Assembly: GCF_031585635.1 (NCBI RefSeq)
Contig: NZ_CP134196.1
Span: 2,108,001 to 2,172,000 of the forward strand
Source of the DNA: Paraburkholderia sp. FT54
Lineage (GTDB): Bacteria; Pseudomonadota; Gammaproteobacteria; Burkholderiales; Burkholderiaceae
Reading direction: 5' to 3'
DNA: 64,000 bases
The notes below the pieces were generated by a model. It was not told the origin of the DNA. It did no database searches and saw only the letters and a program-made list of their open reading frames with translations. Positions 11,339 through 27,812 of this stretch are shown one piece after another; positions within the stretch are counted from its first letter, which is position 1, and the number at the start of each line of letters is the position of its first letter. Both the position numbers and the translations under genes were made by a program.

Positions 11339-11941
11339 CTAAAGAGTCAGCGTTTCGTGCGCCTTGACAATGTCGCTTGCCACCACCTCGATTGGCTCGC
11401 GCTTGAGCATCGCCTTTGAGCGTAGCGACTGATACGCGTGCTCTTCCGACACACCGCGCCTTTCCATCAGGATCTGCGTGGCCTGCTGGACCACTCGAAC
11501 CTTCGCCTGCTTCTTCTCGAGCCGCTCGATGTATCGATCGCGCACCCGCAATGCCTGACATTGCGTCAGCGCCACCGCAATCGCCGTCAGCAATCCGAAT
11601 GAACGCACTGGCGACGGTATCGTCGTCAGCGCGTTCAGGCGCAGCACTGCTTCAACGGTGATCGGATTTTCGCAGGTCACCACCGGAATCACGGGCGGCG
11701 ATAGGCTGGTTCCGAGCCAAGGAAAATCGGCCGAGAGGGTTTCGGGGCGCATTGCCATCAGCACGAGGCCGGTTCCGAAGGGCAAGCAGTCGAGTGTCGG
11801 CCAGCAGACCGTCACGTCGCATCCAATGCGATGGAGTTGAGCTAGAAGCTCGTCGCCGTCCTGATCTTGCGGATGAATCACAACAACTTTCAGCGAGCGC
11901 AAATCGCGAAGGATCGCCAGGCTATCCGCAGTCCACTTCAT
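11339..11941 (-). CDS. Orphan ANTAR-domain antiterminator (AmiR paralogue)
   Basis: RNA-binding transcription antiterminator of 200 residues. The N-terminal two thirds (about 1-130) is a receiver-like domain lacking a clear phospho-acceptor arrangement, then a coiled coil (RDRYIERLEKKQAKVRVVQQ) leads into the three-helix ANTAR domain ending HETLTL. By eye it is about 80 % identical, without gaps, to the AmiR gene at 21467-22069. Unlike that copy it has no AmiC-type sensor beside it. It lies just beyond the distal end of the urt-amidase operon on the same strand but 570 bp away, so probably has its own promoter. It may act on the same leader RNA or on a distant one. Confidence 0.85.
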   Translation of the reverse strand: MKWTADSLAILRDLRSLKVVVIHPQDQDGDELLAQLHRIGCDVTVCWPTLDCLPFGTGLVLMAMRPETLSADFPWLGTSLSPPVIPVVTCENPITVEAVLRLNALTTIPSPVRSFGLLTAIAVALTQCQALRVRDRYIERLEKKQAKVRVVQQATQILMERRGVSEEHAYQSLRSKAMLKREPIEVVASDIVKAHETLTL

Positions 11942-12510
11942 CGTTGCGCCCTGGCATGTAAGCACACGCGACGCGAGTCCTCGGGCCCGACTTCGCCTGG
12001 GTTGATTACATCGTCGAGGCCCGAAGGAAGACGGTGCAGTCGCGCAAACCTGGCGACCTCTAGTTGCATGGTAAGTCTCCTGTAGCCAGACCGAAGAGCG
12101 TACCGTGAGGCCGGTGCCCAGGCGATGCTTCACGGCGCGTTGACCCAATCTACGCCAACGCCGGCACCGCCAAAGAGGAGATCGGCCCCGCGGGAGCCGG
12201 AAGCGCATGTCGTCGTGGTGGCCGAACCGCGGGCTTCCCGCTGGTGTAACAGCCAGCGCGTAGCGATGAGAGAAGATTAGGCCGAGCCGGAGGACGAATC
12301 TACTCTACGGTTGGATATGCCAATGCCGCGTTAGCGTACCGCGCTTATACGGAGGTATAAGCGCAACGAGGGATGAACGCCTGGATTAACCGCCCATCTC
12401 TGCAAATATCAGAGCGGCGGTTCGCCTTGATCTCGTCAATAGCCAGTCGCTCCGCCTGAACCACCGGCGGAGCCACACGCTATTTGCACCGCTCAGACCT
12501 TTGCGGCACC
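11942..12510. other. Gene-free interval between the urt operon end and the orphan ANTAR gene
   Basis: 569 bp with no credible open frame. It contains two inverted repeats: a perfect 10-bp one at 12341-12364 (listed separately) and GCTCCGCC / GGCGGAGC at 12449-12473 with a nine-base loop, 38 bp after the SDR stop codon. Neither is followed by a T-run on the minus strand, so neither is a standard intrinsic terminator. The promoter of the orphan ANTAR gene must lie here. Confidence 0.45.
12341..12364. repeat. Perfect 10-bp inverted repeat, 4-base loop
   Basis: GCGCTTATAC, loop GGAG, GTATAAGCGC. It has an AT-containing core and no flanking T-run, which fits a DNA operator or a cruciform/RNA hairpin better than an intrinsic terminator. 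It sits about 400 bp upstream of the orphan ANTAR gene and 147 bp downstream of the SDR stop. Confidence 0.7.
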
Positions 12511-13281
12511 TTAGAGCTGCACGCCGCGCGTGAGCGCGCCATCCACGACGAGATTCGCCCCGCTCACGAAGCTCGCCGCCGGACTCGCGACGAACGCAAC
12601 CGCGTTCGCGATCTCCTGCGGGCGCGCCATGCGTCCGCTGGGATTCAGCGCGAGTGCTTCCGCGAACAGCTTCGGGTCGTTGTGTTCGATGTGATCCCAC
12701 ACGCCGCCTTCGAAATAGACGTTGCCCGGCGACACGGCGTTCGCGCGAATGCCCTTCGGCGCGAGGTGATAGGCGAGGCCTTGCATGTAGTGGATCAGCG
12801 CCGCCTTGAAGGTCCCGTAAGGGCCGGCGGCGAAGTCGATTTCGCGGCCGGACACGCTCGATATCGCGATGATCGAGGCGGCCTTGCTCGCTTCGAGAAA
12901 CGGTAGCGCGGCATCGACCAGATTGACCGTGCCCATCAGGTCGGTTTCGAACTCCTTGCGCCACGATTCGAGATCGTTGCCGATCGACAGCGCGCTCACA
13001 TTGGCGACCACGATGTCGATTCCGCCCAGTTGCGCGGCGGCTTCGCGGGTCCAGGCCTGTAACGCGGGACCGTTGGAAACGTCGACCGAGGCGCCGCACA
13101 CCTTGACCGCACCACGGGTGGCCTGCACGATGCCGGCCACCGTCTGTTCGACGGCGGCGCCATCACGCGCGCAAAGCGCGACGTGCGCGCCTTCGGTGGC
13201 CAGCGTTTGCGCAATGGCGCGGCCGATACCTTTGGTGCCGCCGGTAACAAGTGCCTTCAAACCGTTGAGTTTCAGATCCAT
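12511..13281 (-). CDS. SDR-family oxidoreductase (last gene of the urt-amidase operon)
   Basis: Classical short-chain dehydrogenase/reductase of 256 residues. The NAD(P)-binding TGGTKGIG motif is at about residues 13-20, the catalytic serine in IAISSVSG and the YxxxK pair in YGTFK, with the NPSGRMARPQEIANAVAFVAS tail typical of FabG-like enzymes. It starts at 13281 with GAGGAG upstream, 12 bp after the amidase stop, so is almost certainly co-transcribed with the amidase. The substrate is unknown; position suggests it processes a product of amide hydrolysis or a carbonyl compound entering with the amide, but this is inference. Confidence 0.88.
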   Translation of the reverse strand: MDLKLNGLKALVTGGTKGIGRAIAQTLATEGAHVALCARDGAAVEQTVAGIVQATRGAVKVCGASVDVSNGPALQAWTREAAAQLGGIDIVVANVSALSIGNDLESWRKEFETDLMGTVNLVDAALPFLEASKAASIIAISSVSGREIDFAAGPYGTFKAALIHYMQGLAYHLAPKGIRANAVSPGNVYFEGGVWDHIEHNDPKLFAEALALNPSGRMARPQEIANAVAFVASPAASFVSGANLVVDGALTRGVQL

Positions 13282-13293
13282 GGTGGCGTCTCC

Positions 13294-14289
13294 TCAGGCA
13301 GCCGGTGCGAGATATTTCTTGCTGATCGCCGCGCCGACCGAATACTTCGGGTCGACGAAATTGCCCAGCCGCACCTTGCCGCACTGGCTGAGCATCATGT
13401 AGGCATCCCAGCGGTCGAAGCCGTATTCCTTTTCCATCCACAGCACCAGTTCGTGGTACGCGATGCGCGTTGCGTCTTCAAGCGGGCGCGCACTGCCGAT
13501 CGCCATCAGCAGCTCATCCGTTTCGAGGCGCGGCCATTCGATGTGCCAGCCCTTGATCAGATCGACGTGGATCGTGGTCGTGCTGGAGAATTCGACGGCG
13601 GTGCCGCATACTTCGCCGTCGCCCTGGCAGGCGTGCGCGTCGCCGATAAAGAGCCGCGCACCGGCGGAGCGCACCGGCAGATACGTGATGCTGCCCGGGC
13701 CCATGTCGGGCACGTCCATATTGCCGCCGTGATTGTCCGGCGTGAGCGAATTGATCGAGTCGATTTCCGGCGACAGGCTCAGTGTGCCGATATGCGGCTT
13801 GTACGGCAGCGTGACGCGCTTGCTCCAGTAGACGCCTTCTTCGTCCACGTCGATCTTGCGGGTGATCTCGGGCAACGGCTCATTGAGCGTCGCGGTGTAT
13901 TCCGTACCGGTCAGCGCGCCGAAGCGCGGAATCAGGCAGCAGGTGCCGCGCGGATTGTCGCCGCGCGGCAGCATCGATTCGATGTAGACCGCCACCACGT
14001 CGCCCTTCTCCGCGCCTTCGATCATGATCGGACCGCTTTGCGGATTCAGGAACGGCACCCGCAGCTTCTGACTCGGCAGATCCTGTTCCGTCAGGATCTT
14101 GCCGTCGAATGCGTCGCGTGTCTGAACCACTACCCGGTCGCCCGGGGCGATGTTCATCACCGGCGTCGAGTACGGTCCGATGGTGTAGTGAAATGTGCCC
14201 TGACGGGATTCGCTGAGATCATGCGTTTCACGGACCTGGCCGCGTGCGACGCCGCGCGTGTACATGATCGATTGTTCGAGCCAGTTCAT
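13294..14289 (-). CDS. Acetamidase/formamidase family protein
   Basis: FmdA/AmdA-family amidohydrolase of 331 residues, which in characterised members hydrolyses formamide or acetamide to ammonia and the acid. Family features include NIAPGDRVVVQTRDAFDGKI, a glycine-rich LTPDNHGGNMDVPDMGPGS segment and the metal-site block LFIGDAHACQGDGEVCGTAVE. It is shorter than the 400-residue formamidases and resembles the compact subgroup. It lies 60 bp after urtE in the same operon, directly linking the transporter to an amidase rather than to urease. The promoter region and the divergent amide sensor support short-chain amides as inducers. Confidence 0.88.
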   Translation of the reverse strand: MNWLEQSIMYTRGVARGQVRETHDLSESRQGTFHYTIGPYSTPVMNIAPGDRVVVQTRDAFDGKILTEQDLPSQKLRVPFLNPQSGPIMIEGAEKGDVVAVYIESMLPRGDNPRGTCCLIPRFGALTGTEYTATLNEPLPEITRKIDVDEEGVYWSKRVTLPYKPHIGTLSLSPEIDSINSLTPDNHGGNMDVPDMGPGSITYLPVRSAGARLFIGDAHACQGDGEVCGTAVEFSSTTTIHVDLIKGWHIEWPRLETDELLMAIGSARPLEDATRIAYHELVLWMEKEYGFDRWDAYMMLSQCGKVRLGNFVDPKYSVGAAISKKYLAPAA

Positions 14290-14350: not shown

Positions 14351-15061
14351 TTACACTGAAATTAACGCTCTGACGTTATTGGCTTCCATCTGGTCCCCGG
14401 CCCCAGCCGAGACAACCTGGCCGCGTACCAGCACGACATAGTCGTCGGCTACCGCCTGCGCGAAATCGAAAAATTGCTCTACCAGCAGGATCGACAGCGA
14501 TCCTTTCAGCGAACGGATCACCGCCTCGATCTCCATCACGATCGACGGCTGGATGCCCTCGGTCGGCTCGTCGAGAATGAGCAGCTTCGGATTGGTCAAA
14601 AGCGCCCTGCCAATCGCAAGCTGCTGCTGCTGTCCGCCGGACAGATTTCCTGCAATGCGCCGGCGCATCGTCTTCAGCACAGGAAAGGTATGAAAGACGT
14701 CATCGAAAGAAAATTGCTTGCCCTTGGCGGTCTGATTGCTCTCGCCGGCGTAGGCGCCGATGCGCAGGTTTTCTTCGACGCTGAGTTGCGGAAAAATCTC
14801 GCGTCCTTGCGGCACGTAGCCCAGACCCGCCAATACGCGCCGGTGCGACGGCGTGCGGGTCAGCGGCTGGCCCGCCAGTTCGATTTCGCCGGCTTTGACC
14901 GGCAACAGCCCGACGAGGCACTTCAGCAAGGTCGTTTTGCCCACGCCGTTACGGCCGAGCACGACGGTGCAGGCGCCGTCGGCGACGTTGAGCGACACGT
15001 CGCGCAACGTGTGGCTGCTGCCGTAAAACTGATTGAGTGCGGAAATCTTCAGCATGCTCAC
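14351..15061 (-). CDS. urtE: ABC transporter ATP-binding protein UrtE (urea/amide type)
   Basis: ATPase of 236 residues in the LivF/UrtE branch. Walker A (LGRNGVGKTTLL), the signature LSGGQQQQLAIGRALL and Walker B (LLILDEPTEGIQPSI) are complete. EPTEGIQPSIVMEIE is characteristic of UrtE. A GTG start at 15061 overlaps the urtD stop by four bases (GTGA), with an alternative ATG two codons later. It is the second ATPase of the high-affinity permease encoded upstream and acts at the inner membrane's cytoplasmic face. Confidence 0.9.
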   Translation of the reverse strand: MSMLKISALNQFYGSSHTLRDVSLNVADGACTVVLGRNGVGKTTLLKCLVGLLPVKAGEIELAGQPLTRTPSHRRVLAGLGYVPQGREIFPQLSVEENLRIGAYAGESNQTAKGKQFSFDDVFHTFPVLKTMRRRIAGNLSGGQQQQLAIGRALLTNPKLLILDEPTEGIQPSIVMEIEAVIRSLKGSLSILLVEQFFDFAQAVADDYVVLVRGQVVSAGAGDQMEANNVRALISV

Positions 15062-15813
15062 CGTCCGAGATAAACCTGAATCACGCGTGGATCATTGCGC
15101 ACGCTCTCCATCGATCCCTCGCCCAGCAACTGCCCTTCATGCAGCACGCTGACGAGGTCCGCGATCCTGCCGACAAAATCCATGTCGTGCTCGATCACCA
15201 CCACCGCCCGCTCGGGCGACTTGAGCCGCGCGATCAGTTCGGCGGTGCGTGCCGTTTCGTGGTCGGTCATGCCGGCAACCGGTTCGTCGAGCAGGATCAC
15301 TTGCGGATCGGCGACAAGCAGCATGCCGATTTCGAGCCACTGCTTCTGGCCGTGCGACAGCGTGCCGGCTATCCGGGGCCCTTCATTCCCGAGGCCGATC
15401 GTCTCGAGCACTTCGTCGATGCGCCGGTTCTGCTGTGCGCCGAGGCGCGAGCGAACCATCTCCGCATATCCGCGACCGTTGCGAATCGCCAGTTCGAGGT
15501 TTTCGCGAACCCGCAGTGCTTCGAACACGCTCGGCTTCTGGAACTTGCGGCCGATGCCCAGCCGCGCGATGGACGTTTCGTCGAGCGTCGCGAGGTTCGT
15601 CACCTTGTTCAGAAAGACCTCTCCGCCTGCCGGCCGGGTCTTCCCCGTGATGACGTCCATCAAGGTCGTCTTGCCCGCACCGTTCGGACCGATGATGGCG
15701 CGAATCTCGCCGTATCGAAGCTCCATCGACAGATTCGTGATCGCCGCGAAGCCGGAAAACGTGACGGACAGGCCGCTGATGTAGATGGCGGTGGCCGGTT
15801 GTGGCTTGTTCAT
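15058..15813 (-). CDS. urtD: ABC transporter ATP-binding protein UrtD
   Basis: ATPase of 251 residues in the LivG/UrtD branch: Walker A IIGPNGAGKTTLMDVITGKTRP, signature LSHGQKQWLEIGMLL (the SHGQKQWLEIGM form is diagnostic for UrtD), Walker B VILLDEPVAGMTDHET and the IEHDMDFV switch region. AGGAGGGG precedes the ATG at 15813. Its start overlaps the urtC stop by four bases, indicating translational coupling through the operon. Confidence 0.92.
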   Translation of the reverse strand: MNKPQPATAIYISGLSVTFSGFAAITNLSMELRYGEIRAIIGPNGAGKTTLMDVITGKTRPAGGEVFLNKVTNLATLDETSIARLGIGRKFQKPSVFEALRVRENLELAIRNGRGYAEMVRSRLGAQQNRRIDEVLETIGLGNEGPRIAGTLSHGQKQWLEIGMLLVADPQVILLDEPVAGMTDHETARTAELIARLKSPERAVVVIEHDMDFVGRIADLVSVLHEGQLLGEGSMESVRNDPRVIQVYLGR

Positions 15814-16946
15814 TGGCCGCCCCTCCTGGTTTCGCTGGCGGCGGCCTTGAGCGTACCCCACACGCCGTTGCTGAAATAGACGACGATCACAAGCGTGACG
15901 CCGGCAAGAATGAACGGCCACAACGCCGGCAGTTGCGCCGTCAGCCAGAACTTGAGTCCGTTGATCACGATAGCGCCGACGATCGCGCCGATCAGCGTGC
16001 CGCGCCCACCGATGGCCACCCACACGGCAATCTCGACGGACAGTTGCGGCGAAACGATGGTCGGGTTGACGATGCCGACCTGCGGCACGTACAGCATTCC
16101 GGCAAACGCCGCGAGTACCGCCGAGAGACACCACGCGAAGAGCTTCAGCGTATGCGTGCGGTAGCCGAGAAAACGCATCCGCGCTTCGTCGTCGCGCACC
16201 GCGATCAGCGCCCGGCCAAAACTGGAGCGCGCGAGAAACCGCACGCCGACATAGGCGACCACCAGGAGCAGGCACGAACACACGGCAAGGCCTATCTGCG
16301 TGGACGTATCGGCAAGCTTGCGGCCGGCGATGCTCGTAAAACCGGTCATGCCATTGTTGCCACCGAGGCCCACGTCGTTGATGAACAACAGCAGCATCAA
16401 CGCATATGTGAGCGCCTGAGTGATGATCGACAGATACACGCCGTTGATGCGCGAGCGGAATGTGACGAAGCCGAACGCGCCCGCGACCAGCACGGTGACG
16501 ACGATCGTGCCGACGATCGTCACATCGAGCCGCGAAAGCATCTTCCATAGCGCGGGAAAGTCGCTCGCGCCCATGTATTGCATGAAGTCCGGCAAGACGT
16601 GCGTTTCGGCATAGGCGCCGTTCAGCAGATAGATGGCCATCATATAGCCGCCTATGCCGAAGAAGACGCCGTGCCCGAGGCTCAGGATGCCCGCATAACC
16701 CCAGACCAGATCGAGCGCCAGCGCGAGCAGCGCGAAACACATGATCTGTCCGATCAGATTGATGCCGAACAGCGACAGATGCAACGCATTCGACTCCGGA
16801 ATCACAAAATAGGCAAAGGGCAGATAGAGCGCCAGCAGGACCAGCACCGGCACGATACCGGCCTCCACGGACTGGCCCATCCATTTCGTTGCGAACGCCG
16901 ACAAGGTGACTCTCCCGCTGTTACGCGGTTCAGGAAATGTATTCAT
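15810..16946 (-). CDS. urtC: ABC transporter permease UrtC
   Basis: Inner-membrane permease of 378 residues in the LivM/UrtC family, with about nine to ten hydrophobic helices. Recognisable blocks are LALDLVWGYAGILSLGHGVFFGIGGYMMAIYL and VRDDEARMRFLGYRT, the latter being the EAA-like loop contacting the ATPase. The start at 16946 overlaps the urtB stop by four bases. It forms a heterodimer with UrtB. Confidence 0.92.
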   Translation of the reverse strand: MNTFPEPRNSGRVTLSAFATKWMGQSVEAGIVPVLVLLALYLPFAYFVIPESNALHLSLFGINLIGQIMCFALLALALDLVWGYAGILSLGHGVFFGIGGYMMAIYLLNGAYAETHVLPDFMQYMGASDFPALWKMLSRLDVTIVGTIVVTVLVAGAFGFVTFRSRINGVYLSIITQALTYALMLLLFINDVGLGGNNGMTGFTSIAGRKLADTSTQIGLAVCSCLLLVVAYVGVRFLARSSFGRALIAVRDDEARMRFLGYRTHTLKLFAWCLSAVLAAFAGMLYVPQVGIVNPTIVSPQLSVEIAVWVAIGGRGTLIGAIVGAIVINGLKFWLTAQLPALWPFILAGVTLVIVVYFSNGVWGTLKAAASETRRGGQ

Positions 16947-18553
16947 ACGCGGGTCTTCAATGCGAAGAGTCCTTGCGGGCGCTTCTGGATAATCAGCACG
17001 ATGAGCAGAAGCACAGCCACCTTGGCGGCAACTGCTCCGTAGAACGGTTCGATGAACTGGTTGATTTCGCCGAGCGCAAGCGACGACACGACCGTCCCCG
17101 CGAGACTGCCCGCACCGCCGAGCACCACCACCATGAACGAATCGACGACGAAGCCCGTGCCCATCGACGGATTGACGCTGGCAATCTGCGTCAGCACCAC
17201 GCCGGCCAGTCCCGCGAGGCCGGCGCCCAGGCCGAACGCGATACGATCGACGCGCTCGGCGGGGACGCCAAGGCAGCGCGCCATGTCGCGCAGCTGCGTG
17301 GTGGCGCGCATCAGCAACCCGAGCTTCGTGAAGCGGACCACGGCGAAGGTCGCCACGAAGATCAGCACGGCGAGCACGATTGCAAATACGCGGTTGTAGG
17401 TCACGAAAAAGCCGGGCGCGACCTGCATGCCGCCGTTGAGAAAGCCGGGCGTGATGAACTCGACGTTCTGCGAGCCGAACAGCACCTGAATCAGCTTGAT
17501 CAACGCAATGCTGACCGCCCATGTGGCGAGCAGTGTCTCCAGCGGCCGGCGATACAGAAACCGGATGACGAAGAATTCGAGCAACATGCCGCACGCTGCG
17601 CAGATCACGAACGCCACGGGAATCGCAACGAAAATGTAGGCGTCGAACAAACCCGGCAGATGCGCCTGCATGAAACGTTCGACGAGATACGTCGCGTACG
17701 CGCCGATCATGATGAATTCGCCATGCGCGAGATTGATCACGCCCATCAGTCCGAACACGATCGACAAACCGAGCGCCGTCAGCAACAACACGCCGGCATA
17801 GCTCAAGCCGCTAAACAGAATCGACAAGCCCTTGCCGAGCGACAGCCACGTATCCATGTTGCGGATCGCGCCCTGCACTGCGGCCAGCACGTCGGGATCC
17901 GATCGCACGGAACTTTGCTCCGCAAAGTTCGCCAGCGCGGTACGCGCGGTTTCGCTCGGCACCTCGGCCACGGCCTTGATCGCCGCCAGGCGGTCGGCCT
18001 TGACGTTGCTGTTCAGTCCGCGCTTGGCCAGCGCCAGCCTGAGAACGGTCGCGATATCCGGGTCGTTCTGCGCCCTGACCGCACGGGCGACGATAGCGGG
18101 GTCGAGTAATGCAAAGAACTTGTCGACTTGCCGCGCGGCCGTCGCGCGGGTGTCTTGCTGTGGCGAGAACAGGTCCATTTCCGCCGACACCACTGCGAGC
18201 TTGCGCATCATCACGATGCTCGGCACATAGGGCGAATCCGCCGGCCCATTGGCACGCGGCTGGAGAGTCGCGGCGTCGAGCGCGGGGTTGCCTTGCAGCG
18301 TCGCCTGACCGTCGGCGCCGCACTGCAGCGCGCCGTTACGGATCGCATCGACGATCTGACGCGCCCACGCACGCTCGTGCGTGTCGTCCGACACGCCGGC
18401 TTCGACGACTTGCTCCAGCGCGGCGGCCTTATCGCCGTCCGTCGCGCAGAACGACGTGAGCATCGCAGCGCGGCTCGGCGCTGCGTTCGCGGTAGTGGCC
18501 CAAACAAGCGCCAGACAAGCGATCGCGAAAAAGAGCTGCCTGAAATTGATCAT
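16943..18553 (-). CDS. urtB: ABC transporter permease UrtB
   Basis: Permease of 536 residues. A signal peptide (about 1-25, ...TANAAPS) and a helical periplasmic domain to about residue 230 precede the LivH-type membrane domain (LSYAGVLLLTALGLSIVFGLMGVINLAHGEFIMIGAY). This long N-terminal extension is typical of UrtB and separates it from LivH. MINFRQ at 18553 is used as the start; an ATG four codons upstream (18565) is possible. It is 83 bp downstream of urtA. Confidence 0.9.
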   Translation of the reverse strand: MINFRQLFFAIACLALVWATTANAAPSRAAMLTSFCATDGDKAAALEQVVEAGVSDDTHERAWARQIVDAIRNGALQCGADGQATLQGNPALDAATLQPRANGPADSPYVPSIVMMRKLAVVSAEMDLFSPQQDTRATAARQVDKFFALLDPAIVARAVRAQNDPDIATVLRLALAKRGLNSNVKADRLAAIKAVAEVPSETARTALANFAEQSSVRSDPDVLAAVQGAIRNMDTWLSLGKGLSILFSGLSYAGVLLLTALGLSIVFGLMGVINLAHGEFIMIGAYATYLVERFMQAHLPGLFDAYIFVAIPVAFVICAACGMLLEFFVIRFLYRRPLETLLATWAVSIALIKLIQVLFGSQNVEFITPGFLNGGMQVAPGFFVTYNRVFAIVLAVLIFVATFAVVRFTKLGLLMRATTQLRDMARCLGVPAERVDRIAFGLGAGLAGLAGVVLTQIASVNPSMGTGFVVDSFMVVVLGGAGSLAGTVVSSLALGEINQFIEPFYGAVAAKVAVLLLIVLIIQKRPQGLFALKTRV

Positions 18554-18636: not shown

Positions 18637-19884
18637 TCAAGCCTTGCCGATGAACGGGCTGAATGCCACTGGCTTCTCGATGTCTTTCGACTTCCACAAA
18701 ATGTCGAAGCCCTGAGTCGCGTTGATCGAGCCGATCATGTCGCCCCGCCACAAGTACTGCGTGGAAGCATCCATCTTCACCGTGTAACCCGCCGGATCGA
18801 CCATCGACTGACCCGCGAGCGCCTTGCGCACCGCGTCCGTGTCGGTGGAATGCGCCTTCGCGGCAGCCTGCGCCCACAGATTGATGCCGAGGTAGGTCGA
18901 CACCATCGGGTCGATCACCATGTCCGGCCGATGCTTCAGGCTATGCGCGCTGACGTAGTTCTTCCAGTCGCTCTTGAACTGGCGATTCTGCGGCGTATCC
19001 ACGTTCTGGAAATAGCACCAGCAGCTGAGGTGGCCGACCAGCGGCTTTGTATCGAGACCCTCCAGATCGCTGTCGACCACGTCCAGGCCAAGAATCGGAA
19101 TATCGGTGGCGCGCACGCCCTGATTGATCGCTTCCTTGAACATCGCCGGAATCGAATCGCCGACCACGGTCATCACGACGATGGCCTGGCCACCCGGTTG
19201 CGCGGCGAAGTCCTTGATGTCGCGCACGATGGTCTGGAAGTTCGATTGCCCGAATGGAACGTAGTGTTCGCGCCATGCGGAGTCCGGAATGTTCTTGGTC
19301 TTGAGATAGCCCTTGAGCATCTTGTTGATCGTGCGCGGCCAGACGTAGTCGCTGCCGATCATATAGAAACGCTTGGCGCCGCCGCCCTGGTCACTCATCA
19401 GGTAATCGATTGCGGGGAGCACCGAGCTGCTCGGCGGCGAGTTCAGATAGACGACGTTCTTCGACTGCTCTTCGCCTTCGAAGTGAAGCGGATAAAACAG
19501 CAGGCTGTCTTGCGACTCGACCACCGGCAACACCGACTTGCGCGACACCGACGTCCAGCAGCCGAATAGCGCCGCGCATTTGTCGCGCAGAATCAGTTGC
19601 TTCGAGAGCTGCGCATACATGGGCCAGTCCGACGCCGGATCGACGACGACACCCTGAAGCTTGCGCCCGAGCACGCCGCCCTTGGCGTTGATCTGATCGA
19701 TCGTCATCAGTGCCGTATCTTTTAACAGCGACTCGCCATTGGCCATCGTGCCCGACTGCGAGAACAGCAGGCCGAGCTTGATCGGATCGCTGGCTTGTGC
19801 GGCGAACGCAGCCTTAGGTAGCGCGGTGCCCGCAGCGGTCACCAATCCGGAGCCGACTGCCGACAGGAAAGTACGTCTTTTCAT
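18637..19884 (-). CDS. urtA: Urea/amide ABC transporter substrate-binding protein UrtA
   Basis: Periplasmic binding protein of 415 residues, first gene of the operon. The N terminus (MKRRTFLSAVGSG...) is a Tat-like signal with the RRTFL motif, cleaved near AFA-AQ. The mature protein matches the UrtA/FmdD/AmiC branch of the Peripla_BP_5 fold: IKLGLLFSQSGTMANGE, FGCWTSVSRKSVLPVVE and FYMIGSDYVWPRTINKM. UrtA and FmdD proteins bind urea or short-chain amides; because the operon carries an amidase and no urease, amides are as likely as urea. GGAGTGAAGC precedes the ATG. The 5' leader carries a terminator and an ANTAR-type hairpin. Confidence 0.9.
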   Translation of the reverse strand: MKRRTFLSAVGSGLVTAAGTALPKAAFAAQASDPIKLGLLFSQSGTMANGESLLKDTALMTIDQINAKGGVLGRKLQGVVVDPASDWPMYAQLSKQLILRDKCAALFGCWTSVSRKSVLPVVESQDSLLFYPLHFEGEEQSKNVVYLNSPPSSSVLPAIDYLMSDQGGGAKRFYMIGSDYVWPRTINKMLKGYLKTKNIPDSAWREHYVPFGQSNFQTIVRDIKDFAAQPGGQAIVVMTVVGDSIPAMFKEAINQGVRATDIPILGLDVVDSDLEGLDTKPLVGHLSCWCYFQNVDTPQNRQFKSDWKNYVSAHSLKHRPDMVIDPMVSTYLGINLWAQAAAKAHSTDTDAVRKALAGQSMVDPAGYTVKMDASTQYLWRGDMIGSINATQGFDILWKSKDIEKPVAFSPFIGKA

Positions 19885-19921
19885 ATGCTTCACTCCGACA
19901 TGGATTAGAAATCGCAAACGC

Positions 19922-19961
19922 AAAAAGCCCGAAACCAGACAAGCTGGTTTCGGGCTTTTTT
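19922..19961 (-). terminator. Intrinsic terminator inside the urtA leader (attenuator)
   Basis: Perfect 17-bp stem (19922-19938 with 19944-19960) and a five-base loop; on the minus strand the stem ends in five U residues. It lies 38 bp before the urtA start codon, in the untranslated leader and downstream of the proposed sigma-54 promoter, so unconditional action would silence the operon. No plus-strand gene ends here, which argues it is a regulated attenuator rather than a gene-end terminator. Confidence 0.85.
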
Positions 19962-19968
19962 GGCCGGT

Positions 19969-19998
19969 GCTGCTCAAGACGCCTTTGTCTCGAACAAC
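19969..19998 (-). promoter_or_regulatory. Putative ANTAR recognition hairpin in the urtA leader
   Basis: On the minus strand GTTGTTCGAGAC pairs with GTCTTGAGCAGC (12 pairs, three of them G-U) around the six-base loop AAAGGC (19981-19986). ANTAR proteins such as NasR, EutV and AmiR recognise hairpins with a hexanucleotide loop having A at position 1 and G at position 4, which this loop has. It is seven bases upstream of the leader terminator, resembling the Klebsiella nasF leader. A second hexaloop hairpin of the dual EutV-type motif was not found. Confidence 0.7.
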
Positions 19999-20050
19999 GA
20001 AATGGATGCTGTGGGTCGCCGTGATGCACAGCGGGACAGCGTCACCATAT

Positions 20051-20068
20051 AAGCAACGGTCATGCCAG
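20051..20068 (-). promoter_or_regulatory. Sigma-54 (-24/-12) promoter of the urt-amidase operon
   Basis: The minus strand reads CTGGCATGACCGTTGCTT: GG and GC separated by exactly ten bases, matching the sigma-54 consensus TGGCACG-N4-TTGCA/T at all but one central position. Transcription would begin near 20041, giving a leader of about 155 nt before urtA that includes the ANTAR hairpin and the terminator. Confidence 0.75.
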
Positions 20069-20199
20069 AGCTTTGCGTTCGGCAGGGGTGCGTGCCGCAA
20101 AAGCCTTTGTGAAGCGGCTGTAAATTGATTAGTTGCGCCCCGGTCAACGCGGGAGGCATTATAAATAAAGCACTTTGCGCGGCTGACTACCTGAAAGCC

Positions 20200-20214
20200 G
20201 CACAAAGGCAGTGC
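20200..20214. promoter_or_regulatory. NtrC-like enhancer site 1
   Basis: GCACAAAGGCAGTGC, a GCAC-N7-GTGC palindrome of the NtrC type (consensus GCACC-N5-GGTGC). It lies about 160 bp upstream of the predicted start of transcription and 21 bp (two helical turns, centre to centre) from site 2. Confidence 0.6.
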
Positions 20215-20220
20215 GAGTGC

Positions 20221-20235
20221 GCACCAGTCACGTGC
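20221..20235. promoter_or_regulatory. NtrC-like enhancer site 2
   Basis: On the minus strand GCACGTGACTGGTGC, matching nine of ten conserved NtrC positions. Paired with site 1 in helical phase, it fits the usual tandem enhancer of nitrogen-controlled sigma-54 promoters. It is also 48 bp before the divergent amiC start, so could affect that promoter. Confidence 0.65.
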
Positions 20236-20282
20236 TGCACGCACAAACAGCGCACTTCCCTGGCGACCTTTGGTTTTGACGA

Positions 20283-21470
20283 ATGACTCGTATTGATGCC
20301 AGCCGTACCTCGGACCCAATCAGAATTGGCGTCCTGTATTCACGCTCAGGCGTAACCTCGGCCGCGGAGCTCACTCAACTGCAAGCCACCATGCTTGCAG
20401 TGGAGGAAATCAATCGCGCAGGCGGCGTGTCAGGACGCGAGATCGAACTCGTCTGTCTGGATCCGCAATGCCAGCCGCGGCGTTATGCCAACCTCGCGGA
20501 ACAACTGATTCTCGAACACCGGGTTCGGATCATCGTCGGCTGCTATATGTCCAGCACGCGCAAGGCGGTCATTCCGATTGTCGAACGGCACAATGCGCTG
20601 CTCTTCTATGCGACACCGTATGAAGGCTTCGAATACAGCCGCAACGTGATCTACACCGGCGCGGCGCCCAATCAGAACACCTTGCCGCTCGCCGGTTTCA
20701 TGCTCACGCAGTTCGGCTCACGCGTGAGCATGATCGGTTCGGACTACGTGTGCCCATACGAGTCGAATCGCGTGATGAGCGATCTGATCCTCGAACGCGG
20801 CGGAGAAAAGGTGGACGAAACCTATCTGCCGCTCGATGCGCCGTGGGAGAGTTATCTCGATGCCGCCAAGCGGATCAAGCAACTCGCACCCGACTTCATT
20901 TTCTCCACGGTAGTGGGCGAAGGCATTCCGCATCTGTACCGTGCGTTTGCGCAGGTCGGGCTCGATCCGTACCGCACGCCTATCGCCAGCCACATGACCA
21001 GTGAAGCCGAAATCGCGGTAATGGGAAACGACCTCGCACAAGGACACATCACCTCAGCCGCGTACTTCCAGAGTGTGGATACAGTTGCGAACCTCGGTGC
21101 GGTCGCCCGCTATCAGGCTCGCTTCGGCGACGACCAGCCGACCAACATGTGCTGGGAAGCCTCCTATTTCCAGATGCATCTGCTCGCGGATGCGATCCGC
21201 CGCGTCGGCTCGGACGACCCGACGCTGTTGCTGCGCGTATTGCCCGGCCTCGAATTCGACGCGCCGCAAGGCCGCGTGCGTATCGACGAGCACAACAACC
21301 ACACGTACCTGCATCCGTTGATCGGCCGGGTCGACGCGCATGGCCGCTTCGATATCATCGGGCGTGCGCCTGAGCGCGTGAAGGCGGATCCCTACGTCGT
21401 CTCTCACAGCACGCCAGCGTGGACCGCGCACGCGCATCCTGAACTCGCACGCGCGGGAGAGGTTCGATGA
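20283..21470 (+). CDS. amiC: AmiC-like cytoplasmic amide/urea sensor
   Basis: Protein of 395 residues with the UrtA/FmdD/AmiC periplasmic-binding fold but no signal peptide, starting MTRIDASRTSDPIRIGVLYS. In Pseudomonas, AmiC is the cytoplasmic amide sensor that holds AmiR inactive until an amide binds. Fold landmarks include SGVTSAAELTQLQATMLAVEEINRAGG, VGCYMSSTRKAVIPIVERHNALLFY and SMIGSDYVCPYESNRV. It is transcribed divergently from urtA and its stop overlaps the next gene by four bases (ATGA), coupling sensor and antiterminator one to one. Ligand specificity is inferred from the adjacent amidase. Confidence 0.88.
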   Translation: MTRIDASRTSDPIRIGVLYSRSGVTSAAELTQLQATMLAVEEINRAGGVSGREIELVCLDPQCQPRRYANLAEQLILEHRVRIIVGCYMSSTRKAVIPIVERHNALLFYATPYEGFEYSRNVIYTGAAPNQNTLPLAGFMLTQFGSRVSMIGSDYVCPYESNRVMSDLILERGGEKVDETYLPLDAPWESYLDAAKRIKQLAPDFIFSTVVGEGIPHLYRAFAQVGLDPYRTPIASHMTSEAEIAVMGNDLAQGHITSAAYFQSVDTVANLGAVARYQARFGDDQPTNMCWEASYFQMHLLADAIRRVGSDDPTLLLRVLPGLEFDAPQGRVRIDEHNNHTYLHPLIGRVDAHGRFDIIGRAPERVKADPYVVSHSTPAWTAHAHPELARAGEVR

Positions 21471-22069
21471 AGCGGACCACGCAGACGCCGGCGATCCTGC
21501 GCGACCTGCGTTCGCTAAAAGTCGTTGTGATTCATCCGCAGGATCAGGACGGTGAAGAGTTGCTCGCGCAGCTTCAGCGCATCGGCTGTGACGTGCAGGT
21601 ATGCTGGCCACGGCTCGATAGCCTGCCTGCCGACACCGGCCTCGTCCTCATGGCGATGCGCCCTGAGGCTCTGTCAGTCGATTATCCGTGGCTCGGAACC
21701 AGCACGTCGCCGCCGGTGATTCCGGTCGTGACCTACGAAAATCCGATCACCATCGAAGCGGTGCTGCGGCTAAATGCGTTCGCGACAATCCCGTCGCCGG
21801 TCCGCTCGTTTGGACTGTTGACCGCCATCGCTGTCGCGCTGACGCAATTCAAGGCATCCCGCACACGTGAGCGATACATCGAGCGGCTCGAGCAGAAGCA
21901 GGCGAAGGTTCGGGTGATCCAGCAAGCCACGCGAATCGTCATGGACTCGCGCGGCATGTCTGAAGAAGATGCATATCAGCTGCTGCGCTCACAGGCCATG
22001 CTCAAACGCGAACAGATCGAGACGGTGGCCGGCGACATCGTCAAGGCGCACGAAACACTGAGTTTCTAA
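21467..22069 (+). CDS. amiR: AmiR-like ANTAR transcription antiterminator
   Basis: RNA-binding antiterminator of 200 residues: receiver-like N-terminal domain (LKVVVIHPQDQDGEELLAQL...), coiled coil around residues 135-160 and a C-terminal ANTAR three-helix domain (MDSRGMSEEDAYQLLRSQAMLKREQIETVAGDIVKAHETL). It overlaps amiC by four bases, the standard amiC-amiR arrangement. Its expected target is the hexaloop hairpin and terminator in the urtA leader, 1.5 kb away and divergent. A near-duplicate (11339-11941) stands at the other end of the operon. Confidence 0.9.
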   Translation: MKRTTQTPAILRDLRSLKVVVIHPQDQDGEELLAQLQRIGCDVQVCWPRLDSLPADTGLVLMAMRPEALSVDYPWLGTSTSPPVIPVVTYENPITIEAVLRLNAFATIPSPVRSFGLLTAIAVALTQFKASRTRERYIERLEQKQAKVRVIQQATRIVMDSRGMSEEDAYQLLRSQAMLKREQIETVAGDIVKAHETLSF

Positions 22070-25358: not shown

Positions 25359-27812
25359 CTATTCGATATCCAGCGGATTCACATGCCAGATGTTGCGTGC
25401 ATATTCGCCGATCGTTCGATCCGACGAAAACTGCCCCATGCCCGCCACATTCTCGATTGCGCTTTCGGCCCACGCGCGTTTGTCGACAAAGCGCGCGTCC
25501 ACCTCGTCCTGCGCCTTCGCGAACGCCGCGAAATCGGCGAGCACCATGTAGTGATCGCCCCAATCGACCAGCGTGTGGAAAATAGCCGAGAAGCGTAGCG
25601 GATCGTCTGGTGAGAAGAAGCCGGTGCGGATCTGGTCGAGCGCCATGCGCAGTTCCGCGTTCTCTTCGTAGATCTGCCGCGGCCGGTAGCCGCTGGCGCG
25701 CAGGTTGTCCACTTCGTCGGCGGTGTGGCCAAAGATGAAGATGTTCTCGCGGCCCACCGCGTCGCAGATTTCGATATTCGCGCCGTCCATCGTGCCGATC
25801 GTCAACGCGCCGTTGAGCGCGAGCTTCATGTTGCCGGTGCCCGATGCCTCCGTGCCGGCCATGGAAATCTGCTCCGACAGATCGGCGGCCGGAATGATCA
25901 GCTCCGCCACGCTCACGCCATAGTTCGGCACGAATACCACCTTCAGGCGGTCGCCGACCAGCGGATCCTGATTGACCTTTTCGCTGACGTCGCCGATCAG
26001 CTTGATGATCGTCTTCGCCATCCGGTACGCGGAGGCGGCCTTGCCGGCGAACATCACCACGCGCGGCACCCAGTCGAGTTCCGGATTCGCGCGAATCTGG
26101 TTGTAGCGCACGATCACGTGCAGCACGTTGAGCAGTTGCCGCTTGTACTCGTGAATGCGCTTGACCTGCAGATCGAACAGCGCATCCGGATCGAAATGCA
26201 GTTTCGTATGATGCGCGAGACGGTGCACGAGCCGCAGTTTGTTCTGCCGCTTCGCTTCACGGAAGGCGTCGATGAAACCGCTATCCGTGCGCAGGTTGCG
26301 CAGTTGCTCCAGCTCGAACAGATTGCTGCGCCAGTGCTTGCCGATCTGCTGATCGATCAGCGACGACAACGACGGGCTCGCCTGCGCGAGCCAGCGGCGC
26401 GGCGTGATGCCGTTGGTGACATTGGTGAAGCGGTCCGGATAGATACGCGCGAAGTCGGCGAAGATATCGCGCGTCATCAGTTGCGAATGCAGCTTCGACA
26501 CGCCGTTCACCTTGTGGCTCGCTACGATCGCCAGATACGCCATGCGCACGCGCCGCTGCCCGTATTCGTCGACGAGCGAAATGCGGCGAATCATCTCGGC
26601 GTCATGGCCCGATTGCTCGCTGACGTGCTTGAGAAATTGCGCATTGATCTCGAAGATGATCTCGAGGTGCCGCGGCAACAGGCGCGCGAGCATCTCCACG
26701 TCCCACGTTTCGAGCGCTTCGGGCATCAACGTGTGATTCGTGTACGAGAAGATCTGCGTGACATGCTTCCACGCCTTGTCCCACTGCAGATGGTGGACGT
26801 CCACCAGCAAACGCATCAGCTCGGGAATTGCCAGCACGGGGTGCGTATCGTTCAGATGCACCGCCACCTTTTCGGAGAAGCGCCCGAACGTGCTGTGCGT
26901 GCGCTGATAGCGGCGAATCAGATCCTGCATGGTCGCCGAGACGAAAAAGTATTCCTGACGCAGACGCAACTCGCGGCCGGCCGGTGTCGAGTCGTCCGGG
27001 TACAGCAGGCGCGAGACATTCTCCGACGTGTTCTTGGTGTCGACCGCGTTGCGGTAGTCGCCGCGATTGAATGCGCCGAGATCGAGTTCTTCGGTCGCGC
27101 GCGCCGACCACAGGCGCAGTGTGTTGGTCGCATCCGTTGCGTAACCCGGAATGACGGTGTCGTATGCCGTGGCATTCACGTGTTCCGTATCGATCCACTC
27201 GACATGTTCGCCACGCTGCACCGTGCGGCCGCCGAAGTGCACCACGTACTTGATCTCGGGCCGCGGAAACTCCCACGGATTACCCGCGCGCAACCAGTAG
27301 TCCGGCGCTTCGACCTGCTCGCCGTTGACGATCTGCTGACGGAACATGCCGTATTCATAACGGATGCCGTAACCGAAACCCGGAATGCCGAGCGTCGCCA
27401 TCGAATCGAGAAAGCACGCCGCGAGCCGGCCGAGGCCGCCGTTCCCGAGCGCGGCGTCCGGCTCGATATCGGTCAGCGCATCCATGTCGACGCCGAGACT
27501 CGCCAGCGCTTCCTTCATCTGGTCGTGGATGCCGAGGGCGAGCAAGGCGTTCGTAAAGGTCCGGCCAATCAGGAACTCCATCGACAGGTAGTAGACGCGT
27601 TTCACGTCCTGTTCGTATTGCAGGCGCGTGGTCTTCATCCAGCGCGCGACCAGCCGGTCGCGCACGGCGAGCGCCGCGGCGTGCAGCCAGTCATGCGGAT
27701 GCGCGGTGACGGCGTCCTTGCCGACGCCGTACATCATGCGATTGGAAATTGAGCGCCGTAGCGCGTCGACGGTACTGTTGAGCTGGTCGAATTCCAGATC
27801 GACGGCTGTCAT
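25359..27812 (-). CDS. glgP: Glycogen/starch/alpha-glucan phosphorylase
   Basis: Enzyme of 817 residues that phosphorolyses alpha-1,4-glucans to glucose-1-phosphate. N-terminal GVGKDAVTAHPHDWLHAAALAVRDRL, RVYYLSMEFLIGRTFTNALL and ALGNGGLGRLAACFLDSMATLGIPGFGYGIRYEYGMF are unmistakable; the PLP-binding lysine is Lys663 in EASGTGNMKLALNGALTIGTMDGANIE. The start at 27812 follows GGAGG; the frame is open further upstream but that part is not family-like. Stand-alone gene here; the other glg genes are not adjacent. Confidence 0.97.
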   Translation of the reverse strand: MTAVDLEFDQLNSTVDALRRSISNRMMYGVGKDAVTAHPHDWLHAAALAVRDRLVARWMKTTRLQYEQDVKRVYYLSMEFLIGRTFTNALLALGIHDQMKEALASLGVDMDALTDIEPDAALGNGGLGRLAACFLDSMATLGIPGFGYGIRYEYGMFRQQIVNGEQVEAPDYWLRAGNPWEFPRPEIKYVVHFGGRTVQRGEHVEWIDTEHVNATAYDTVIPGYATDATNTLRLWSARATEELDLGAFNRGDYRNAVDTKNTSENVSRLLYPDDSTPAGRELRLRQEYFFVSATMQDLIRRYQRTHSTFGRFSEKVAVHLNDTHPVLAIPELMRLLVDVHHLQWDKAWKHVTQIFSYTNHTLMPEALETWDVEMLARLLPRHLEIIFEINAQFLKHVSEQSGHDAEMIRRISLVDEYGQRRVRMAYLAIVASHKVNGVSKLHSQLMTRDIFADFARIYPDRFTNVTNGITPRRWLAQASPSLSSLIDQQIGKHWRSNLFELEQLRNLRTDSGFIDAFREAKRQNKLRLVHRLAHHTKLHFDPDALFDLQVKRIHEYKRQLLNVLHVIVRYNQIRANPELDWVPRVVMFAGKAASAYRMAKTIIKLIGDVSEKVNQDPLVGDRLKVVFVPNYGVSVAELIIPAADLSEQISMAGTEASGTGNMKLALNGALTIGTMDGANIEICDAVGRENIFIFGHTADEVDNLRASGYRPRQIYEENAELRMALDQIRTGFFSPDDPLRFSAIFHTLVDWGDHYMVLADFAAFAKAQDEVDARFVDKRAWAESAIENVAGMGQFSSDRTIGEYARNIWHVNPLDIE

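Follow-up and report, generated by a model that had tools for sequence, protein, structure and literature searches.

In Paraburkholderia sp. FT54, the leader of a urt-type transporter operon lies opposite a divergent amiC-amiR pair. This raises the question of which signals have to coincide before the operon is transcribed. The first-pass annotation proposed an AND gate, with NtrC reporting nitrogen starvation and AmiR reporting amides. We examined the locus in a stretch of 64,000 nucleotides (nt), hereafter the window, and in related genomes. The AND gate stood as the best explanation and its parts are conserved; a second hairpin had gone unnoticed in it, and its logic was already known in Klebsiella. 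On the sequence evidence, we consider it likely that the operon, which would encode an amide importer and hydrolase, has a two-input leader combining NtrC/sigma-54 control with AmiR antitermination.

Genes of the operon and of the sensor pair

The genes under consideration are as follows.

18637..19884, minus strand: urtA, urt-type substrate-binding protein (profile match below the urea-specific cutoff)
16943..18514, minus strand: urtB permease, start uncertain (TIGR03409 above cutoff)
15810..16946, minus strand: urtC permease (PF02653)
15058..15813, minus strand: urtD ATPase, start approximate (TIGR03411 above cutoff)
14351..15061, minus strand: urtE ATPase (TIGR03410 above cutoff)
13294..14289, minus strand: acetamidase/formamidase-family hydrolase, 331 aa (PF03069, FmdA_AmdA)
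12511..13281, minus strand: short-chain dehydrogenase, probably in the operon
11339..11941, minus strand: amiR2, second AmiR-type ANTAR protein (80% identical to AmiR)
20283..21470, plus strand: amiC sensor (match to Pseudomonas aeruginosa AmiC 1PEA, E 9.7e-99)
21467..22069, plus strand: amiR, antiterminator with AmiR_N and ANTAR domains (matches AmiR structure 1QO0)

The designation urtABCDE was borne out for UrtB, UrtD and UrtE, which scored above urea-transporter cutoffs, but not for UrtA, which reached 410.2 bits against a urea-specific cutoff of 492.75 bits. Moreover, another protein of the same Pfam family in this genome (C1:3281033) scored higher than UrtA (539.2 versus 409.5 bits). Together, these scores are in keeping with a UrtA substrate other than urea. 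The hydrolase had been named fmdA. It belongs to the FmdA_AmdA family, but with 73.9 bits against the formamidase equivalog cutoff of 500 bits it is not an FmdA equivalog. A reading of urtC and urtD as a fusion was also discarded; the correct frame gives a separate urtC.

The assignment of the divergent pair to amiC and amiR was confirmed by the structure matches and by the AmiR domains. There is a 4-base overlap between the two genes. In AmiC, the YMS and TPYEGF stretches of its P. aeruginosa counterpart are conserved; we take them to be part of the ligand pocket. On the operon strand, amiR2 is separated from the operon by some 570 nt in which no clear gene is seen. The upstream part of amiR2 (11339-12511 region) resembles the amiC-amiR junction, as if amiR2 had arisen by duplication of amiCR with later loss of amiC.

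Layout of the leader region

In order of transcription, the region upstream of urtA contains the following elements, all on the minus strand.

20221..20235: distal NtrC-type box GCACGTGACTGGTGC (GCAC-N7-GTGC, 0 mismatches)
20200..20214: proximal NtrC-type box GCACTGCCTTTGTGC (GCAC-N7-GTGC)
20052..20067: predicted sigma-54 promoter TGGCATGACCGTTGCT (consensus match, kept in relatives)
19969..19998: P1, ANTAR hairpin of 12 bp with loop AAAGGC, A1 and G4 (fold and covariation)
19951..19966: P2, predicted antiterminator hairpin CGGCC-AAAAAA-GCCCG with one C/C mismatch (pairing in the alignment)
19922..19960: intrinsic terminator with 17-bp stem, 5-nt loop and U run (fold and covariation)

The two palindromes 21 bp apart, the sigma-54 site at 20067-20052 upstream of urtA, and the P1 hairpin with its hexaloop were present as first annotated. 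So was the 17-bp terminator stem (arms 19960-19944 with 19938-19922), although its extent is one base shorter than the 19922-19961 given before. The urtA start codon (ATG, 19884-19882) is located 3' of the terminator. Judging from the position of the sigma-54 site, the transcript would start at about 20040.

The consensus forms are TGGCAY-N5-TTGCW for the sigma-54 site and GCAC-N7-GTGC for the NtrC box. The sigma-54 site has 0 mismatches to its consensus, and the pattern TGGCAYR-N4-TTGC has a single match in the window (0.15 expected). The two NtrC boxes begin 147 and 168 nt upstream of this site. A lone box was dropped as evidence, because the window contains 6 of them against 3.28 expected, too close to expectation. 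When a box was required at 112-142 nt from a sigma-54 site, a spacing picked around the urtA promoter itself, three places were found in the 8.6-Mb genome and none with the reversed-pattern control. No sigma-70-like site was detected in 19800-20320.

The core GACAAAGNCGTC has just one match in the window (0.01 expected). The leader (20039-19915) folds with a z-score of -6.7; a 5' hairpin within 20039-20005 reached only -1.7. In an Rfam search of 8000-30000 up to E 1, the leader had no match. The sole match in that search was a sub-threshold Moco-II (25494-25538; 26 bits versus a gathering score of 35).

The region separating the NtrC boxes from the sigma-54 site (20121-20170) contains TTTATTTATRATGCC- and GATCAATT-like stretches, which were seen by eye and recur in several relatives. 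They are perhaps an amiCR promoter or a DNA-bending site.

Distribution of the leader among relatives

Using AmiC as the query, 80 loci were fetched. Of these, 47 were searched with covariance model R1, and 33 other amiC loci, mostly actinobacterial, were left out of this search. Scores above 60 bits were obtained at 23 of the 47 loci, namely at every locus with an AmiC at least 62% identical. Three further loci (L029, L030 and L031) scored 29-36 bits, and the best match at Pseudomonas loci had E 0.06 or worse.

The leader and amiC are divergently arranged at each of the 23 high-scoring loci. Beyond the leader, 22 of these loci have a urtA-type gene (L020 is cut off), with 79-98% identity in 19 loci and 36-37% in L026, L027 and L040. 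Similarly, amiR was found 3' of amiC in 22 of the 23 loci (L025 is cut off, L017 partly). Thus the hairpin and terminator, whose loss in relatives that keep amiCR would speak against the annotated switch, are present, among the 47 loci searched, wherever AmiC is at least 62% identical. Against the switch counts L028 (AmiC 57%), which keeps amiC and amiR but has neither a leader match nor a urtA-type neighbor in its 4.5 kb.

In the genus, some leader match was obtained in 126 of 144 genomes and none in the other 18. A tally of 106/144 at E 0.01 was dropped since it comprised mostly weak terminator-like matches; at E <=2e-7, 30 of the 144 genomes have the leader. Leader and AmiR_N co-occur: AmiR_N was found in 22 of 23 leader genomes, the exception being G108, versus 20 of 74 others (Fisher p 2.6e-9). 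With strict filters, an order-wide search at 1e-7 recovered 8 of 399 genomes, counting that of the window; under these filters the leader is not common in the order. At the DNA level, two of 40 genomes were matched (the window's own and G019), under criteria too stringent for absence to be judged.

Two side observations were made at related loci. In L139 (11149-11701), the hydrolase match is confined to two pieces, residues 1-37 and 229-330, and that of the dehydrogenase to its first 39 residues; the operon tail seems broken there. A similar decay of the tail in L143 was discounted, as the match there runs up to the edge of the retrieved sequence. In L141 (2953-3390), a 146-aa protein (MIPIPKKG...) without a Pfam match is located behind an ANTAR leader, and it has relatives in L137 and L146.

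A putative nitrogen promoter that is separable from the RNA

With up to one mismatch allowed, sigma-54 sites were found upstream of 22 of the 23 amiC-side leaders (17 without any mismatch) versus 13 of 4000 random stretches. A 0-mismatch NtrC box 147-195 nt upstream of the sigma-54 site was found in 15 of the 23 relatives versus 71 of 4000 random stretches, the latter count coming from a slightly longer scanned stretch than in the relatives. Among further leaders of the urt, NMT1 and related kinds, 21 of 24 have a sigma-54 site at the same tolerance. In contrast, livK- or amiE-type leaders have it in 0 of 11 cases, even when two mismatches are allowed. Thus the RNA switch is also found where the nitrogen promoter is lacking. 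The leader in L145, beside AmiC and AmiR genes, has no sigma-54 site either.

These counts omit L109-L111, L113 and L114, taken as repeats, as well as L029-L031, and two of the seven order-level loci (L172 and L173) did not parse. Some repeats remain (leader L106 equals L009, and L139 equals L010), and the livK-type leaders are close kin. One protein of the window's genome passes the NtrC equivalog cutoff, and two pass that for RpoN. Judged by these comparisons, the predicted sigma-54 promoter is a real layer, separable from the RNA switch.

Related leaders in the same genome and the ANTAR input

At E <=2e-12, the genome contains three leaders, the urtA leader and two on C4. The first C4 leader precedes an NMT1-type binding protein that starts with MKRGTF. 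UrtA starts with MKRRTF, and this similarity suggests that leader and gene start were copied together. The second C4 leader precedes genes for a MetX-like hydrolase, an amidase-family protein and a cytosine-permease-like protein; its sigma-54 site has two mismatches. Another genome (G110) has four leaders at E <=3e-6.

The strict search for a box plus a sigma-54 site, at spacings of 112-142 and 82-112 nt, returned three promoters in total: those of urtA, of the NMT1 leader and of a nirB leader (C1:2152726-2152877, L164). The gene behind the last scores 574.0 bits to NirB over its first half (the rest is cut off), against a cutoff of 578.35 bits. The nirB leader, at a gene of nitrite assimilation, resembles the urtA leader. 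It has a pair of GCAC-N7-GTGC boxes spaced by 21 bp, a sigma-54 site that fits the consensus, a P1 hairpin (loop AACGTG, folded) and a strong terminator (z -7.4). Its P2, GGAC-AACGGC-GTCC, overlaps the terminator as seen by eye. Both nirB loops have A1 and G4, unlike P2 of urtA. At C2:1113852, a REC-ANTAR protein adjoins an NMT1_2 protein. This is probably a NasT/NasS pair, which presumably serves the nirB leader.

Three ANTAR proteins are encoded in this genome, and the input to the urtA leader could come from AmiR2, from AmiR together with AmiR2, or from NasT, in which case the signal would not, or not only, be an amide sensed by AmiC. The close relationship of AmiR2 to AmiR fits this alternative, and so does genome G108, which has a leader (L142 3201-3294, with sigma-54 site and NtrC box) but no AmiR_N match. 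Against it, amiC is divergent from the leader at every one of the 23 high-scoring loci, and the NasT candidate adjoins a NasS-like protein and would have the nirB leader, with other loops, as its own target. We therefore regard an input other than AmiR alone as unlikely and retain AmiR as the probable antiterminator at urtA.

Covariation of P1 and the terminator

The RNA was analyzed in an alignment of 25 leaders, two of them from the genome of the window; model R1 was built from this alignment. In P1, 9 of 12 pairs show changes on both sides, and of the 16 terminator pairs counted, 8 do so. For both structures, 0 of 500 shuffles reached the observed covariation values, a result that the shuffle test overstates because the aligned sequences are kin. 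Pairing dropped from 90.8% to at most 49.5% when the partners were slid.

The P1 loop features of the first-pass annotation also held across the alignment, in which the stem covaries as described: A1 is present in 25/25 leaders, and G4 occupies at least 90% of its column (it is changed to A in L022 and L024). An A1 tally of 48/48 over parsed leaders is circular, as the search pattern required A1, and the 25-leader alignment was used instead.

For P2, 98.9% of the cells are paired. Its variation is uninformative, with no compensatory change in the 25 aligned leaders. The 5' arm of P2 (CGG-C), which lies outside the terminator, is invariant in 25/25 leaders; by this comparison, the arm is kept as sequence.

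P2 as a candidate antiterminator

The P2 hairpin (19966-19951) was absent from the earlier reading of the leader; as a second ANTAR hairpin, it would complete the switch. Its 3' arm (GCCCG, five bases) is part of the 5' arm of the terminator. The overlap is exact, and thus P2 and the terminator are mutually exclusive. P1 folds with -17.7 kcal/mol (z -5.5) and the terminator with -27.4 kcal/mol (z -7.0). P2 alone reaches -2.8 kcal/mol, 97 of 200 shuffles fold equally well, and forcing it costs 15.5 kcal/mol versus the terminator fold. Given this weakness and cost, the protein would need to act during RNA synthesis.

The P2 loop, AAAAAA, has A1 and lacks the canonical G4. Of 49 distinct leaders, 48 were parsed and 41 have a P2 loop of six bases, with A at position 4 in 23 of them, G in 15 and C in 3. 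The leader is therefore filed as a variant of the ANTAR dual-hairpin class and not as a strict consensus member. With a canonical P1 loop, a P2 that overlaps the terminator and an ANTAR protein in the genome, it would be expected to work like an ANTAR-responsive dual-hairpin leader.

AmiR might also act on P1 only, blocking terminator folding from a position near the polymerase, with the P2 hairpin irrelevant. This would fit the covariation and the canonical A1/G4 loop that, of the two hairpins, only P1 has, and the instability of P2 alone. It would also agree with a minimal ANTAR binding motif consisting of a single hexaloop, as given in excerpts of PMC8934654. It would not account for the invariance of the P2 5' arm outside the terminator, nor for the livK-type leaders, in which P2 is clean and its loop (ACAGAA or ATAGAA) carries A1 and G4. 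Furthermore, EutV antitermination is harmed by changes in either loop, according to excerpts of PMC3369931. We hold antitermination through P1 alone to be quite improbable and favor a switch that uses both hairpins.

That the near-symmetric terminator, which matches model R1 on the opposite strand too, merely insulates the divergent operons by halting stray transcription both ways, with the hairpin incidental, is very improbable, as the terminator sits between urtA and the only promoter-like site found, P1 covaries, further copies of the leader precede different genes on a separate contig of this genome, and the leader co-occurs with AmiR.

Proposed mechanism

The elements, their conservation and the covariation of P1 and the terminator rest on sequence and comparison, and the two-input leader built on them would work as follows. 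Under nitrogen limitation, NtrC bound to the two boxes would activate sigma-54 RNA polymerase at 20067-20052. The resulting transcript would carry a leader of about 155 nt, and by default the polymerase would halt at the terminator. A small amide would bind AmiC, and AmiR would be released. The ANTAR domains of AmiR would recognize the P1 loop and then capture P2. By taking GCCCG from the 5' arm of the terminator, P2 would block the full terminator, and urtA and the following genes would be transcribed together. Positive feedback may come from amiR2, which lies 3' of the operon.

Relation to known systems

The closest described logic is that of nitrate assimilation in Klebsiella oxytoca, where one operon is under Ntr control and NasR antitermination, as described in excerpts of PMC5424462. 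By this description, the nasF leader resembles the urtA leader in combining nitrogen-limitation control with inducer-specific ANTAR antitermination. It differs in operon and substrate, and NasR itself senses nitrate, whereas AmiC would sense and AmiR act at urtA.

The sensor and antiterminator belong to the same families as the AmiC-AmiR pair of P. aeruginosa. Hairpins and a terminator were seen by eye upstream of P. aeruginosa amiE (L042, about 2590-2675). There, the upstream sequence contains TTGACA (L042 2540, by eye), in contrast to the sigma-54 site at urtA; the amiE leader controls an amidase operon, the urtA leader a urt-type importer; and L042 gave no match to model R1 up to E 0.5.

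The eut leaders of Enterococcus faecalis share P1 and a P2 that overlaps the terminator with the urtA leader (excerpts of PMC3369931 and PMC8934654). They differ in that EutV is a phosphorylated response regulator and both eut loops keep A1 and G4, and these excerpts describe no sigma-54 layer.

ANTAR regulons that span several operons have already been proposed in PMC3369931, which also reports putative ANTAR RNAs in Burkholderia. Sigma-54 promoters have been predicted for ANTAR protein genes in a survey from 2025 (PMC12316311), which is a separate claim. The first-pass annotation knew of no case joining both layers on such an operon. In open-licence papers, with the supplementary tables of PMC3369931 outside this scope, we found no description of a urt-type amide operon with both layers. 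The two-signal logic itself is already known from Klebsiella (PMC5424462), and the nirB leader of this genome appears to be built alike. The amide operon, the copied leader and the P2 loop without the canonical G4 would be new.

Implications

We tentatively suggest that the NtrC/sigma-54 promoter and ANTAR leader may form a mobile cassette. It would have been copied, together with the first codons of urtA, onto other transporters and would build an AmiR regulon for secondary nitrogen sources, with the A4-for-G4 divergence of P2 keeping AmiR leaders from NasT. All three strict NtrC/sigma-54 promoters found at the two spacings feed ANTAR-type leaders, and if the cassette reading is true, this would be a general design. 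At urtA, inducer-specific antitermination would lie atop global nitrogen control outside nitrate use. The livK- and amiE-type leaders, which keep the RNA switch without sigma-54, provide a natural set in which the layers are separated. Together with a P2 loop that departs from the published A1/G4 rule, such relatives would make specificity among the several ANTAR proteins of one cell directly testable.
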